Of a stretch of DNA of 64,000 nucleotides, positions 2,514 to 32,708 are shown piece by piece. The stretch spans positions 1-64,000 of the forward strand of contig JAHKAM010000028.1 of NCBI GenBank assembly GCA_018826515.1, written 5' to 3'. The notes beneath the pieces were generated by a model that searched no databases, was not told the DNA's origin, and saw only the letters and a list, made by a program, of their open reading frames with translations. Positions within the stretch are counted from its first letter, which is position 1. Each line of letters opens with the position of its first letter. Made by a program: the position numbers and the translations under genes. This DNA comes from Alphaproteobacteria bacterium (GTDB lineage Bacteria; Pseudomonadota; Alphaproteobacteria; Caulobacterales; Caulobacteraceae).

Positions 2514-2527
2514 GGGGGAAGGATACA

Positions 2528-2624
2528 GGGCTTAGGGCTCGGGGAGTAGGGCTCAGGAAGGAGAACGGGGCAGTCTCTGAGACCTGGACCTAACCCCTAA
2601 GATCCAAGACCTAAGACCTAAGCT
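2528..2624. repeat. Heptamer-repeat hairpin A
   Basis: The left arm (2528-2557) is four heptamers in register: gggctta, gggctcg, gggagta, gggctca. The right arm (2590-2624) is five heptamers: ctaaccc, ctaagat, ccaagac, ctaagac, ctaagct. The right arm is the approximate reverse complement of the left, so the whole can fold as an imperfect long hairpin with a loop of about 30 bases. It fills the gap between the LON-domain gene and the Trm112-like gene. Hairpins B (8095-8205) and C (11225-11293) have the same architecture with different heptamers. Confidence 0.75.
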
Positions 2625-2630
2625 CTCGCT

Positions 2631-3290
2631 TCACTGCATCGACGGCGGCTCGCCCTCTCCGTCGGTCGCGGCGTCAATGGTCAGCAGGGCGGTCAGGACG
2701 GCGGAGCGGTCGGTCAGGCTGATGGCTTCCAGCAAGGCCTGTTTCTCGGGCGGATCGAACGGCAGGGCCATGGACAGGCTGTTGATCAGGGCCTCGGGCG
2801 GCGCCGTTTCGGCTGTGTCCCAGTCGATGTCGAGGCCGCGGGTTTCCAGATAGGCGCGCAGGGCGTCCAGCAGGCCGTCGCGGTCGAGGCCGACGTCATC
2901 CACCGGCGGGGCGCTCAGATCCGTCTCGAACGGTGCGAAGTCGGCGCGAATCTGGCGATAGGGGGTCTGGGCCGGGATCTCGCCGGACAGGCGGAAGCGG
3001 GCACAGCCTGTCAGGGTGATCAGATAGCGTCCGTCCGACGTCTCGGCGAAACTGGTGATCCGTCCCGCGCAGCCTACCGGCGACAGGCCGGGCAGGCGCT
3101 GTGGCCCGCCCTGGGGCTGGACCATGCCGATAAGCCGGTCTCCGGCCATGGCGTCGTCGATCATGTTCAGATAGCGCGGCTCGAAAATGTTGAGCGGCAG
3201 CTGCCCGCGCGGCAGCAGGATGGCGCCGGGCAGGGGAAAGACCGGAATCACCTGCGGCAGATCGGCGGCCTTCACATATCCCTGCGCCAT
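2631..3290 (-). CDS. LON peptidase substrate-binding domain protein
   Basis: A 219-residue stand-alone version of the N-terminal domain of Lon protease, without ATPase or peptidase domains. The start is typical: PVFPLPGAILLPRGQLPLNIFEPRY in shape, that is, two strands followed by the conserved NIFEPRY element at about residues 35-41. Next come the DRLIGMVQP strand and a helical C-terminal half. I used the ATG at 3290; an upstream extension in the same frame is proline- and arginine-rich and unlikely to be translated. Such proteins are thought to bind unfolded or specific protein substrates, but the role is not settled. It is 8 bp downstream of the CnoX-like gene on the same strand, suggesting a small proteostasis operon. 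Confidence 0.88.
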   Translation of the reverse strand: MAQGYVKAADLPQVIPVFPLPGAILLPRGQLPLNIFEPRYLNMIDDAMAGDRLIGMVQPQGGPQRLPGLSPVGCAGRITSFAETSDGRYLITLTGCARFRLSGEIPAQTPYRQIRADFAPFETDLSAPPVDDVGLDRDGLLDALRAYLETRGLDIDWDTAETAPPEALINSLSMALPFDPPEKQALLEAISLTDRSAVLTALLTIDAATDGEGEPPSMQ

Positions 3291-3298
3291 GCCCGCCC

Positions 3299-4195
3299 CT
3301 ATGCGAACAGGATGGAGGACAGACGGCGGCGACCGTCCCGGGCCACGTCCGACGTGGCGCCGGCGGCCTCGAACACCACCAGCAACTGTTTGCGGGCAGC
3401 CTGGTCGTTCCACTCGCGGTCAGCGGCGACGATGGCCAGCAGGCTGTCGACCGCGCCCTTCAGATCGCCCGAGGCGGCCTGGGCCAGGGACAGGTCATAG
3501 CGGGCCTGATGATCGTCGGGATCGGCGGCGACCTTCGCCTTCAGGTCATCGTCCGCGCCTGTCGGGGCGGAAGACAGGAGGGCCAGTTGGGCCCGGACGG
3601 ACTGGACCGTGGCGTCCTTCGAATCCTGCGGGGCCATGGCGATGGTCTGGCGCGCCTGATCAATGTCGCCATCGGCCAGATAGACCCGCGCCATGCCGGC
3701 GACGGCTCGCTCATGAGCCGGCTCCAGCGTCAGCACCTGGGCGAAGGCCTGGGCCGCGCCGCCCAGATCATTGAGCGTCAGCGACTCCTCGCCGAGCGAC
3801 ATCAGCTGTTCGATGTCGGAGTTGGCGCTCGTTCCGCCGGTCAGCTTGTCGATGAAGGCCTTGAGCTGGCTGTCCGGCACGGCGCCCTGGAAGCCGTCGA
3901 CCGGCTGGCCGTTGACGAAGGCGTAGACCGTCGGGATCGACTGGACCCGCAGCTGGCCTGCATAGGCCGGATTCTTGTCGACATCGATCTTGACCAGCTT
4001 CACCGCCCCGCCGGCGGCGCGGACGGCCTTTTCGATCATCGGCGTCAGCGTCCGGCAGGGTCCGCACCAGGTCGCCCAGAAGTCGACCAGCACCGGCTGG
4101 GACTTTGAGGCCTCGATGACATCGGTCATGAAGCCGGCGTCGGAGCCGTCCTTGATCAGGTCCTCGGGCAGGGTGGTCGGGTCGGCGAAGCTCAT
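3299..4195 (-). CDS. CnoX/YbbN-like thioredoxin-TPR co-chaperone
   Basis: A 298-residue protein with a thioredoxin domain in residues about 10-125 followed by tetratricopeptide-like helices. The active-site motif is WCGPC at residues 43-47, so both redox cysteines are present. The thioredoxin cis-proline follows in the phrase SIPTVYAFVNGQ. The length and domain order match CnoX (YbbN), a holdase in E. coli that protects proteins from oxidative aggregation and works with GroEL or DnaK. The E. coli protein has lost one cysteine, whereas this one keeps a full CxxC pair, as in Caulobacter-type CnoX. The ATG at 4195 is preferred over the adjacent TTG. It is the likely first gene of a pair with the LON-domain protein. 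Confidence 0.88.
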   Translation of the reverse strand: MSFADPTTLPEDLIKDGSDAGFMTDVIEASKSQPVLVDFWATWCGPCRTLTPMIEKAVRAAGGAVKLVKIDVDKNPAYAGQLRVQSIPTVYAFVNGQPVDGFQGAVPDSQLKAFIDKLTGGTSANSDIEQLMSLGEESLTLNDLGGAAQAFAQVLTLEPAHERAVAGMARVYLADGDIDQARQTIAMAPQDSKDATVQSVRAQLALLSSAPTGADDDLKAKVAADPDDHQARYDLSLAQAASGDLKGAVDSLLAIVAADREWNDQAARKQLLVVFEAAGATSDVARDGRRRLSSILFA

Positions 4196-6840: not shown

Positions 6841-7305
6841 ATGAGCGAACACCTCGCCACCATCGAATGGAGCCGCGGCGACCAGCCGTTCCTGGACAAG
6901 CGCTATGCCCGCGCCCACGACTGGCGCTTTGACGGCGGGGCGGAGGTCCGCGGCTCATCGGCCCCGTCAGACCTCGTGCCGGCGCCGCTGTCGGATCCGG
7001 CCGCGGTCGATCCGGAGGAGGCGCTGGTGGCGGCCCTGTCGAGCTGCCACATGCTGTTTTTCCTCGCCTTTGCGGCCAAGGGCGGCTTCACGGTCGATTC
7101 CTATCGCGATGAGGCCGTCGGCGTTCTGGGCCGGGACGAGCGGGGCAAGACCTCGATCACCTCGGTGGCGCTGAGGCCCGCCGTCGCCTTCTCGGGCGAG
7201 AACCGGCCTGACGCCGCCGCCATCGACGCCCTGCATCACCGCGCCCACGAGGCCTGCTACATCGCCAATTCGATCCGGGCCGAGGTCACGATCGAGCCGC
7301 GCTGA
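6841..7305 (+). CDS. OsmC family peroxidase
   Basis: A 154-residue OsmC/Ohr-superfamily protein, predicted to reduce organic hydroperoxides through a cysteine pair. Cys69 sits in LSSCHMLFFL and Cys139 in HEACYIAN, the usual spacing for the peroxidatic and resolving residues. The N-terminal strand phrase VRGSSAPSDLVP also fits. It is closer to the OsmC-like group often annotated as peroxiredoxin OsmC than to Ohr. The ATG at 6841 begins a clean N-terminus about 100 bp from rpe, which is divergent. Its 3' end overlaps the convergent hydrolase gene by 20 bp. Confidence 0.88.
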   Translation: MSEHLATIEWSRGDQPFLDKRYARAHDWRFDGGAEVRGSSAPSDLVPAPLSDPAAVDPEEALVAALSSCHMLFFLAFAAKGGFTVDSYRDEAVGVLGRDERGKTSITSVALRPAVAFSGENRPDAAAIDALHHRAHEACYIANSIRAEVTIEPR

Positions 7306-8056
7306 CCGGCGGCGCGACAGCCACGTCGTGCAGCAGGGCGACGAAGCGGCGCTCGGCCTCGGCCGCCAGTTCGGGGTGGTAGCGCATCGGCGGCGCCGTC
7401 ATCGGTTCGTCAAAACTGTGGGTCCCGTCGGCGACCCAGGTTTCCACATCCGCCCCGCAATTGCGGACCATGTCGTGCACCCGTTCAGCGTTGCGCACCG
7501 TGGTCAGGTGGTCGGTGCGCGAGATCACCGCCACCGTCTTCGGACAGTGCCGCCACGGACGCATCCGGTTGAAGGCGCCGATGCCGACATAGGGATAGGC
7601 CAGCCAGGTCCCCACCACCCCGTCCAGCGATACCGCGCCGGGGTCGGCGACGCCCAGCTGGCCGGCGGCCCGTTCCGAACTCATCGCCTCCATGATGCCC
7701 CAGCCGCCGTGGCTCCAGCCGGACAGGACGATCTTCGAGGCGTCCACATCGGGCCGCTGAGACACGCCGTGCAGGGCCGCGAGCACGTCGCCGGCCCGCT
7801 GCCAGCCCTGGAGCAGCACCCCGGTGCAGACCATGGCCATGGCGAACTGCCGGCTCCAGCCGCGCGGGGCATAGGAATCGACGATGAAGGCGCGCCAGCC
7901 CGCCGCCTTCGCCGCCGCGGCGTATTTCGGCAGATGGCCGCGCAGGCCGCCGCAGCCGTGGAACAGGATCACCGCCGGGCGCGGCCGGTCGTCGTCCGGA
8001 CCGACGACCGTCACGGCGGGCGCGAGCATGGTCCAGCGCTGGGAGAGAGTTTGCAT
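7286..8056 (-). CDS. Dienelactone-hydrolase-like alpha/beta hydrolase
   Basis: A 256-residue alpha/beta hydrolase. The oxyanion-hole segment is LFHGCGG (residues 31-37), the nucleophile elbow GWSHGG puts Ser115 at its centre, and Asp182 (SRTDHLT) and His213 (DGTHSF) complete a plausible triad. The architecture resembles the dienelactone hydrolase family, but that family uses a cysteine nucleophile in its founding member, so the substrate here is open. No signal peptide is evident. It lies downstream of purH on the same strand, separated by hairpin B, and converges on osmC. Confidence 0.78.
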   Translation of the reverse strand: MQTLSQRWTMLAPAVTVVGPDDDRPRPAVILFHGCGGLRGHLPKYAAAAKAAGWRAFIVDSYAPRGWSRQFAMAMVCTGVLLQGWQRAGDVLAALHGVSQRPDVDASKIVLSGWSHGGWGIMEAMSSERAAGQLGVADPGAVSLDGVVGTWLAYPYVGIGAFNRMRPWRHCPKTVAVISRTDHLTTVRNAERVHDMVRNCGADVETWVADGTHSFDEPMTAPPMRYHPELAAEAERRFVALLHDVAVAPPVSAARS

Positions 8057-8094
8057 GGGTGGAGCCTTAGCCGGAGCGGTCCGCGGGTCGAAGT

Positions 8095-8205
8095 GATTAG
8101 TGGTTAGTGGCTGGTGGCTAGTAGTTCCTCGCCGCGAGCGCCGGTGGGCTAATGCCTGTCACAGAAACGGCCCCAGCGATCACTAGCCACTAGCCACTAA
8201 GCACT
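8095..8205. repeat. Heptamer-repeat hairpin B
   Basis: The left arm (8095-8125) is heptamers gattagt, ggttagt, ggctggt, ggctagt plus agt. The right arm (8179-8205) is atcacta, gccacta, gccacta, agcact. The arms are near-perfect reverse complements in the same 7-base register, separated by about 50 bases. It occupies most of the 156-bp gap between purH and the alpha/beta hydrolase. It is the clearest of the three such elements in the window (see A at 2528 and C at 11225). Confidence 0.85.
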
Positions 8206-8212
8206 CTCCCGC

Positions 8213-9817
8213 TCAGTGCCGGAACACCCGCACCCCGGTGAAGGCCATGGCCACCCCCGCCTCATCCGCCGCCGCGATCACCGCGTCGTCGCGGATCGAG
8301 CCGCCGGGCTGGATCACAGCGGTGGCGCCCGCCGCCACCGCTTCCAGCAGGCCGTCGGGGAAGGGGAAGAAGGCTTCGGAGGCGCAGGCGGACCCCTGGG
8401 CCAGCGAATGGGCCAGTCCCTTGGCCTCGCCGGCCTCGCGGGCGCGAATGGCGGCGATGCGGGCCGAGTCGCGGCGGTTCATCTGGCCGGCGCCGATGCC
8501 GGCGGTCTGGCCGTCCTTGGCATAGACGATGGCGTTCGATTTCACGTGTTTGGCCACGGTGAAGGCGAACAGCATGTCCTCGATCTCCTGCGGCGTCGGC
8601 TGACGGCGGGTCACGATCTTGAGGTCCGACGGGGCGATCCGGCTGCGGTCGCGCGACTGGACCAGGAAGCCGCCGGCCACCGAGCGGAACACCTCGCCGA
8701 CGGCCAGCGGATCGGGCAGGCCATCGGTCAGCAGCAGGCGCAGGTTCTTTTTGGCGGCGAAGATGGCCCGGGCTTCCTCGTCAGCGCCGGGGGCGATGAC
8801 GACTTCGGTGAAGATGTCGGTGATCAGCCGGGCGTCGGCCCCGGTCAGGGCGCGGTTGACGGCGATGACGCCGCCGAAGGCCGAGACGGCGTCGCATTCC
8901 AGCGCCCGGGCATAGGCCGTCGCCAGATCGCCGCCCACGGCGACGCCGCAGGGATTGGCGTGTTTGACGATGACGCAGGCCGGGGCCTCGAACTCGGCGA
9001 CCAGCTCATAGGCGGCGTCGGCGTCGGCGATGTTGTTGTAGCCCAGCTCCTTGCCCTGCAGCTGGCGGGCGTGGGCGACGCCGGGGCGGGCATCCCCGGT
9101 GCGGTAGAAGGCGCCGGTCTGGTGCGGGTTCTCGCCGTAGCGCAGGGTCTGGGCCAGCGCGCCGGCGATGGATTTGCGGGCGGGGGCGGCGTCCTCGACC
9201 TGTCCCGCGAACCAGCCGGAGACGGCGGCGTCATAGGCGGCGGTGTGGGCGAAGGCGCGGGCGGCCAGCCGCTTGCGCAGGGCCAGGGTGGAGGCCCCGT
9301 CGGCCTTCAGCGCCTCCAGCAGCTCGGCGACCGAGGCGGGATCGACGCAGACGGCGACATAGCCGTGGTTCTTGGAGCCCGAGCGGATCATGGCCGGGCC
9401 GCCGATGTCGATGTTCTCGACCACGGCGTCGAAACCGGCGCCGGACTCAACGGTTGATTCGAACGGGTAGAGATCGACCCAGACGATATCGATCGGGCCG
9501 ATGTTGTGGGTCGCCATGGCCTCGGCGTGGTCGGCGGCGTCGCGCACGCCCAGCAGGCCGCCGTGCACCACCGGGTGCAGGGTCTTGACCCGGCCGTCCA
9601 TCATCTCGGGGAAGCCGGTCAGATCGGCCACGTCCTTCACCGGCAGGCCGAACCCGGCGATGGCGGCCCGGGTGCCGCCGGTCGAGACCAGTTCGACGCC
9701 GAGGCCGTGCAGGGTGCGGGCGGCGTCCTCCAGCCCGGTCTTGTCGGACAGGGAAATCAGGGCGCGCTTCGGCGCCACGCGGTCCGGCGCGGGGGGAAAG
9801 TCGGGAGCGGCGGGCAT
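8213..9817 (-). CDS. purH: Bifunctional AICAR formyltransferase / IMP cyclohydrolase
   Basis: A 534-residue enzyme for the last two steps of IMP synthesis. The N-terminal MGS-like cyclohydrolase domain (residues about 15-150) contains [17 protein letters not shown] and [15 protein letters not shown]. The C-terminal formyltransferase domain carries the catalytic KHANPCG element (Lys and His) in [14 protein letters not shown], with LRYGENPHQ at the junction. The length is typical (about 530). The ATG at 9817 gives the expected short leader. Downstream is hairpin B; upstream is the ProX-like gene. Confidence 0.97.
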
Positions 9818-11224: not shown

Positions 11225-11293
11225 GGTCTTGGGGCTTGGGGCTCAGGTTGCTCAGAAGCGGCGGTCGCCCCCAAGCCCCAGGCCCCAAGCCCC
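11225..11293. repeat. Heptamer-repeat hairpin C
   Basis: The left arm (11225-11252) is ggtcttg, gggcttg, gggctca, ggttgct. The right arm (11270-11293) is cccaagc, cccaggc, cccaagc, ccc. The arms are complementary in the same register with a loop of about 17 bases. It lies between the convergent 3' ends of the DUF6065 gene and the lipoprotein gene, where a bidirectional terminator would be expected. It shares its design with hairpins A and B but not its exact sequence. Confidence 0.8.
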
Positions 11294-32412: not shown

Positions 32413-32494
32413 GGAGCGCCGCAGGGTGAAGGATTGCGGGCTGAGCCTCAAGCGCCGTTTCCAGCCTTGCGCCGCCTCTGTTGCACTGCGACAA

Positions 32495-32660
32495 TCTCGA
32501 CAGGCGGTTAAGGGAACGCGGTCGAACACCGCGGCTGTGCCCGCAACTGTAGGCGGCGAGACGGTCGATCATTCCGGGGCTTCGGCCTCGGCGTCACTGG
32601 GCAACCGGGAAGGCGCGATCCTCCGTTTTTGACCCGCAAGCCAGGAGACCTGGCCGCCGA
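32495..32660 (+). ncRNA. Cobalamin (B12) riboswitch
   Basis: All core elements are readable in order on the plus strand: ggttaagggaacgcggt with its hairpin partner accgcgg, then gtgcccgcaactgtagg, the gtcactgggcaaccgggaaggcg stem in two parts, and finally the B12 box gcaagccaggagacctg at 32636-32652. This matches the adenosylcobalamin riboswitch consensus closely. cagg at 32501 can pair with cctg at the 3' end to close the structure. It lies in the leader of the BtuB-like receptor, so B12 should reduce receptor expression. The exact ends are approximate. Confidence 0.95.
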
Positions 32661-32708
32661 CGTCGCTCGTCCGCTGTCCGGGACCAGACAGAGGCGTGGG
32701 GCCAACCC

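Follow-up and report, generated by a model that had tools for sequence, protein, structure and literature searches.

A tandem-heptamer hairpin beside purH in a Caulobacteraceae genome, probably a gene-less relative of S23p elements

Tandem heptamers make up the cyanobacterial STRR repeats, and the P6b stem of the tRNA-Leu intron is built from heptamers. S23p proteins, for which we know of no enzymatic activity, are encoded by intervening sequences (IVS) of 23S rRNA genes (e.g. the helix-45 IVS, Coxiella, Leptospira), where the S23p gene lies inside complementary borders, as it does in the elements described here. In the part available, PMC4990558 describes tandem GACAGAT heptamers immediately ahead of the S23p start in the Coxiella IVS, which RNase III excises; other 23S insertions are listed in the accessible text of PMC2672173. 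Heptamers in intergenic DNA were described as GGGNATC repeats in Xanthomonas and Nostoc by Rehm et al. 2015 (PMC4692102, available in part), with 70 (Xcc) and 75 (Xac) inverted pairs and a frequent position beside stop codons. The TAACTGA repeats of Beggiatoaceae are, in the portion of PMC4679880 at hand, intergenic direct arrays mostly upstream of genes, with one inverted case; the same text cites Mrazek 2007 for a heptamer excess. These arrays and this excess resemble our case in placing tandem heptamers in intergenic DNA.

The elements reported here differ from the 23S IVS in that they lie between protein genes, in many copies, most of them gene-less. They differ from the GGGNATC repeats in interpretation, since PMC4692102 reads those as quadruplexes and its main text is without the terms 'S23', 'four helix' or 'intervening'. 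MITEs and REPINs are also short, lack coding content, are built on inverted repeats and have relatives that carry a gene, but here no transposase of a known class is tied to the elements, no target duplication was seen, and the arms are tandem arrays of variable length. Searches of an open-licence library listed no paper linking S23p genes to heptamer arms outside rRNA, which does not prove that print has none; heptamer hairpins are known in outline, and their tie to S23p elements appears to be new.

The window analysed is a stretch of 64,000 nt (positions 1 to 64,000 of contig JAHKAM010000028.1, assembly GCA_018826515.1) from an alphaproteobacterium of the Caulobacteraceae. Hairpin B occupies 8094-8203, with tandem-heptamer arms (TGRYTAG)4 and (CTARYCA)3 around a 61-nt loop. 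The features discussed below are as follows, by window position.

2527..2623, no strand assigned: second-word hairpin, CTTAGGG / CCTAAGA, 7 bp from the stop of a minus-strand LON-substrate-binding-domain gene (2631-3413)
7286..8056, minus strand: dienelactone-hydrolase-family gene (PF01738), its ORF start 37 bp from the hairpin B left arm
8094..8121, plus strand: hairpin B left arm, TGATTAG TGGTTAG TGGCTGG TGGCTAG (from sequence and run finder)
8122..8182, no strand assigned: hairpin B loop, 61 nt, the commonest loop length, without the common core motif GCGGAAGGGCGGCGC
8183..8203, plus strand: hairpin B right arm, CTAGCCA CTAGCCA CTAAGCA, pairing with the left arm in register (from sequence, run finder and fold)
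8213..9817, minus strand: purH (AICARFT/IMPCHase, PF01808), its stop (8213-8215) 9 bp from the hairpin B right arm
11225..11292, no strand assigned: second-word hairpin, CTTGGGG / CCCCAAG, loop 22 nt, 7 bp from ORF stops on both sides (11217 plus, 11300 minus)

Hairpin B had been described, in a sequence-only reading, as a hairpin whose complementary heptamer arms pair in register, and both the sequence and the fold agree: the RNA of 8080-8220 has a folding energy of -66.6 kcal/mol, where shuffles give -49.1 +/- 3.95 (z -4.4), and none of 200 shuffles does as well. It carries no gene and lies between purH and the hydrolase gene, not in an rRNA gene. No Rfam family matched it at the gathering score, and the plasmid collection held no DNA match to it. 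An intrinsic terminator was considered and rejected, as no T run follows either arm by eye. Two more window elements of the same plan with other words had also been reported, and a scan of periods 2-15 recovered them: it gave four period-7 runs (2599, 8097, 8181 and 11269), all in the three hairpins, each with an ORF stop codon at a distance of 7-9 bp. The window also contains a cobalamin riboswitch (RF00174, 71 bits) at 32490-32672.

Orthologous gaps were compared, as had been suggested. Four congeners (L152-L155) have a hairpin at the purH site, its arm units differing between species, and this copy is therefore old; such heptamer runs were absent at the other 25 purH loci (of 101 genomes matched), the gap not being delimitable in 6. 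In further same-genus genomes (L166, L171, L173, L175) the gap between purH and the hydrolase gene contains different long hairpins, of the CTCCTCCCYGTCGCG type, which suggests that inserts are readily accepted there.

Further copies were sought across the genome under study (3.25 Mb, 94 contigs) and found. The query CTAGYCACTAGYCAC at up to two mismatches gave 226 matches, against 37 for its reversed control, and 41 left/right arm pairs were delimited in the examined stretches, with 2-7 units per arm and a loop of exactly 61 nt in 20. The 41 include a pair whose left arm is borrowed from a neighbour (C60:9056-9226) and a compound copy (C58:23656-23852), with six unpaired runs besides; without the borrowed-arm pair and one gene-bearing pair, 39 independent pairs lacking a gene remain. 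A gap-free alignment of 23 copies shows a common oriented core with a nearly invariant GCGGAAGGGCGGCGC, and one oriented 61-nt core recurs at many unrelated sites. The copies are clustered, none occurring in 20 other 20-kb stretches, chosen after the match list had been seen, where about 5 were expected. The proposed excess of 7-base periodicity holds for particular families and not for intergenic DNA at large: of 84 inverted repeats in the 20 stretches and the window, by a scan that missed the 2527-2623 hairpin, 2 had clearly period-7 arms (identity at least 0.6), both of them in the window, against 0 of 32 in simulated sequence. Contigs C30 and C35 (L053, L056) both end within the same hairpin core sequence, so that the assembly may break at these repeats.

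Hairpin B shares with MITEs terminal inverted repeats, dispersal and the absence of coding content. Paired inverted repeats dispersed in gene gaps would also fit a REPIN-like element that owed its mobility to a RAYT (Y1 transposase), possibly lost later, but the genome gave 0 PF01797 matches in a search whose control was positive in Caulobacter vibrioides and four other genomes, and the arms are tandem arrays rather than single REP palindromes. We regard such an origin as very improbable. Copying between arms by slippage had been offered as one of three origins, and the gene-less copies give it no support: left and right unit numbers are uncorrelated across pairs (r 0.11), and the arms within one copy are barely more complementary than arms between copies (p 0.03, pairing register). 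Covariation between the arms of gene-less copies is weak: on the measures used, 14 to 64 in 500 shuffles do as well. Other repeat types were seen in the same genome. Two hairpins (L293:18150-18387 and L301:12164-12356) have arms that look like 9-base units (types CACGAAGGA and CACAACGGR, with period-9 identity near 0.5) and may form a second family with periodic arms, and CTCATCCCGGCGAAAGCCGGGACCC hairpins are dispersed as another repeat family (L300:5756-5894, L291:19045-19184, L301:9740-9872).

The gene-bearing pair, C62:44986-45612, lies outside the window, so that the sequence-only reading had no view of the S23p link; it encloses between its arms a gene matching PF05635 (23S_rRNA_IVP, S23p), TIGR02436 (four helix bundle protein) and PDB 2gsc (XCC0516). 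It has the word TGRYTAG/CTARYCA in common with hairpin B, and the RNA of the entire element reaches a folding z of -4.1 (20 shuffles). The genome has three PF05635 genes (L094, L095, L096), each of them flanked by inverted heptamer arms, with the words TTAGTGG, GCAGGCA and CTTGGGG; the inverted-repeat score of L096 is only just above shuffles (19.0 against 17.5). Each of the three words is also found in gene-less hairpins, including those at 2527-2623 and 11225-11292 of the window. The CTTGGGG/CTTAGGG word occurs by eye in nine gene-less hairpins, the two window ones among them, and GCAGGCA in two (C58:61681-61772 and C70:36849-36927, from paired pattern positions only), with no genome-wide excess of GCAGGCA over its reversed control (17/23 against 25/26). 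The 61-nt core is not visibly matched at the ends of S23p elements with the same word, and an origin of the gene-less copies by internal deletion is therefore not supported.

The second window word, CTTGGGG, has G-tracts, and a role of the repeats as G-quadruplex elements has been published for the GGGNATC heptamers of Xanthomonas and Nostoc (PMC4692102, in the part available). Neither TTAGTGG nor the frequent AGTAGTG and AATAGCG contains a GGG tract, and we give this explanation very little credence. Among protein families, S23p weakly resembles Avd of diversity-generating retroelements (NF033474, E 3.5e-4 and 6.2e-5; phrog_3206, E 5e-9 and 4.8e-6), but with 20.8 and 23.3 bits it stays far under the NCBIfam cut-off of 80. 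Avd proteins act together with a reverse transcriptase. The single PF00078 reverse transcriptase match of the genome (L284, C68:70481-70927) is about 11 kb from the nearest hairpin found, and C68 carries none of the three S23p genes. Phage records gave no match to the single S23p query used.

S23p genes elsewhere were examined by a joint test on the top-scoring inverted repeat no more than 400 bp from the gene (inverted-repeat score at least 16 and period-7 identity at least 0.55). Among the matches listed, 57 PF05635 loci had top period 7 in 50 cases and 8 in 3, and 45 passed; random window spots passed in 0 of 400. The best 80 of 427 confirmed named S23p loci, which span Rhizobiales, Nostoc, Rivularia, Planctomycetes and Acidobacteria and of which the closest to the genome under study is from Brevundimonas (90% identity), on which ground that genome is assigned to this genus, had period 7 in 74 and 8 in 5, with 66 passing. 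Combined, these 137 loci had period 7 in 124 and 8 in 8, and 111 passed. At 254 control spots from the same loci, period 7 was found in 15 and 8 in 21, mostly with multiples of three as the period, and none passed. Twenty more S23p places had period 7 in 14 and 8 in 3. The plasmid loci examined (12 of 20 records, all cyanobacterial) had period 7 in 9 and 8 in 2; on cyanobacterial plasmids (L325-L333, L281-L283) the S23p genes lie within operon-like gene rows, including CRISPR rows. Twenty lower-ranked PF05635 matches had top period 7 in 15, and only 7 passed. The counts in all these samples are of places, a few of them entered twice (L150 and L264 are one; L099 and L187 apparently so; L261 and L262 are identical rRNA copies). 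Some S23p loci are without convincing arms (e.g. L141, L227, L263, L279, L340, L341, L344, L347). The sequence-only reading had held that the periodicity and self-complementarity matter and not the sequence itself, and this is well supported, since from locus to locus the arms differ in word but retain period 7, or in some cases 8. One genome (G414) has two S23p copies, identical over 2883 bp, inside a 23S rRNA gene (RF02541, 2173 bits on L261), with TCAGGGA heptamers in the arms; given also the Coxiella heptamers, the rRNA insertion and the intergenic element have the same plan.

The word of the arms follows the protein. Loci were excluded if their arms scored below 15, if their period was neither 7 nor 8, or if their protein was at least 95% like one kept (L240, with a stop in its translation, was also left out). 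Over the 102 of 135 loci kept, protein identity and arm similarity were correlated (Mantel r 0.53, p at most 0.001, largest permuted value 0.17). Left arms scored 0.913 against their own right arm and 0.618 against those of other loci, the first value being high partly by construction, as arms were defined by the best inverted repeat. If replication slippage produced heptamer arrays at whatever palindrome it met (the 7 nt being a polymerase footprint) and S23p genes merely tolerated them, this would account for unit numbers that vary between 2 and 7 and are uncorrelated between arms, and slippage is the published guess for the heptamer-repeat excess (PMC4679880, PMC4692102, both available in part). 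It leaves the word-protein correlation and the common core unexplained, and it does not explain why arms occur at S23p loci and not at the 254 control spots, so that we think it decidedly improbable.

Word and protein also coincide among genomes of the family. The TTAGTGG pattern occurs at least 10 times per strand in 5 of 199 family genomes: the genome under study (G000, 97/97), G186 (69/65), G117 (64/51), G058 (24/26) and G189 (14/14). Of the 22 family genomes bearing PF05635 (39 matches, all of them examined), four have S23p genes with TTAGTGG arms, namely G000, G058, G117 and G189, all among those five; the chance of four out of four falling in five of 40 same-genus genomes is 5 in 91,390 by hand calculation, with relatedness ignored. 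G186 is the exception, its 69/65 hairpin matches being accompanied by a sole S23p with another word, and G037 has S23p arms of a near variant (TGGCTGG) with one pattern match. G168 has many CYRATCA-type arrays (40/31 matches to the reversed control against 2/3 to the pattern) without an S23p of that word, and hairpins can therefore persist alone. The reversed control over the 199 genomes is not independent, as it can match arrays of CTAATCA, a true word variant (18/10 against 14/14 in G189).

Sites differ in state between relatives. A Nostoc plasmid site after a TraM-domain gene holds an S23p element in L325 and L326. In L335 the same site, with flanks 97% identical, holds a 260-bp gene-less stretch (no frame over 52 codons) with an inverted repeat that scores 24, where none of 200 shuffles exceeds 14, its right arm a perfect TTCCCTA heptamer array and its left arm only partly periodic. 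L336 and L338 have 52 bp there without such a repeat, by eye; the site exists in gene-bearing, gene-less and empty form. Picosynechococcus PCC 7003 has an S23p element between cas10 and cmr3 where PCC 7002 has 12 bp, and Anabaena 90 has one between cas6 and cas4, a place taken by a different insert in a Dolichospermum relative. By eye, these comparisons of filled and empty sites, whose junctions are ambiguous, revealed no target-site duplication. We infer mobility from these states. Of the three origins proposed earlier, a mobile hairpin is the best supported, by the dispersed oriented core, the site polymorphism and the gene-bearing form.

Positions relative to genes were counted with genes called by ORF length only, so that starts are imprecise. 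Among 98 S23p loci with enough flank (of the 102), a long upstream ORF was co-oriented in 54 and opposite in 35 (p 0.056). Its stop lay within 30 nt of the left arm start in 47 of the 54 co-oriented cases, and a flanking ORF had its stop within 30 nt of gene-less copies in 30 of 36 and its start in 5 of 36, counts that are partly circular because the arms contain stops and end any open frame that enters (the 36 are the 41 pairs minus the window copy, the gene-bearing C62 copy, C31:28193, C58:24534 and C60:9056). Stops outside the arm lay within 30 nt in 25 of the 36 gene-less copies and, counted by hand from the distances, in 29 of the 54 S23p loci. Arm units contained a stop triplet at 78 of 102 loci, against 49.7 +/- 4.4 (maximum 64) for within-unit shuffles, and stops in all three frames at 63 of 102, against 31.9 +/- 4.6 (maximum 46), a statistic weakened by the relatedness of loci. 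As neither 7 nor 8 is divisible by 3, a stop in the repeated unit can come up in every frame, and the arms would end translation entering from either side.

The abundance of copies abutting stops (25 of 36 outside the arm; the window copies at 7-9 bp) would be expected of resident 3'-end hairpins that serve RNA stability or as RNase III sites, with S23p as a regulator that binds RNA and shares the hairpin it targets, nothing being mobile. The strong folding of hairpin B fits such a role, as do the similar Xanthomonas repeats, which are transcribed and at conserved sites according to the available text of PMC4692102. RNA stabilisation, as the earlier reading had suggested, keeps this much in its favour, but resident hairpins do not account for one oriented 61-nt core at many unrelated sites, for sites filled or empty in relatives, or for the weak covariation of the arms. 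A mobile hairpin is better supported, and we judge the resident explanation unlikely.

The best interpretation of hairpin B is that of a non-coding relative of S23p elements which was probably mobilised in trans. We consider it likely that it is a gene-less member of a small family of selfish S23p elements and was spread in trans by an S23p with the matching word. A full element consists of a heptamer arm, an S23p gene (PF05635, about 120 codons) and a complementary heptamer arm, about 430-630 bp in all, and S23p of the same word would spread the gene-less copies, presumably by recognising the hairpin that the arms form when paired, be it in RNA or in single-stranded DNA. Such an element may be tolerated because it tends to sit just after a stop codon, because its arms would offer all-frame stops to ribosomes arriving from either side, and because the hairpin in a transcript could be cut, as RNase III cuts 23S rRNA insertions. 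More tentatively, and with less confidence than we place in the reading of hairpin B, S23p proteins might be the mobility factors of widespread minimal elements (430-630 bp cassettes and hairpins of about 100 bp) that insert after stops without target duplication, are recognised through the pairing of 7- or 8-base arms and carry all-frame stops; the 23S insertions and much of the heptamer excess would then be their outposts.

The elements join three puzzles, namely the S23p genes of 23S rRNA insertions, which are not known to have a function, the heptamer-repeat excess of bacteria and the dispersed intergenic hairpins. They give S23p a testable role and substrate, and they offer a possible reason for the number 7, which is not a multiple of 3 and so places stops in all frames.
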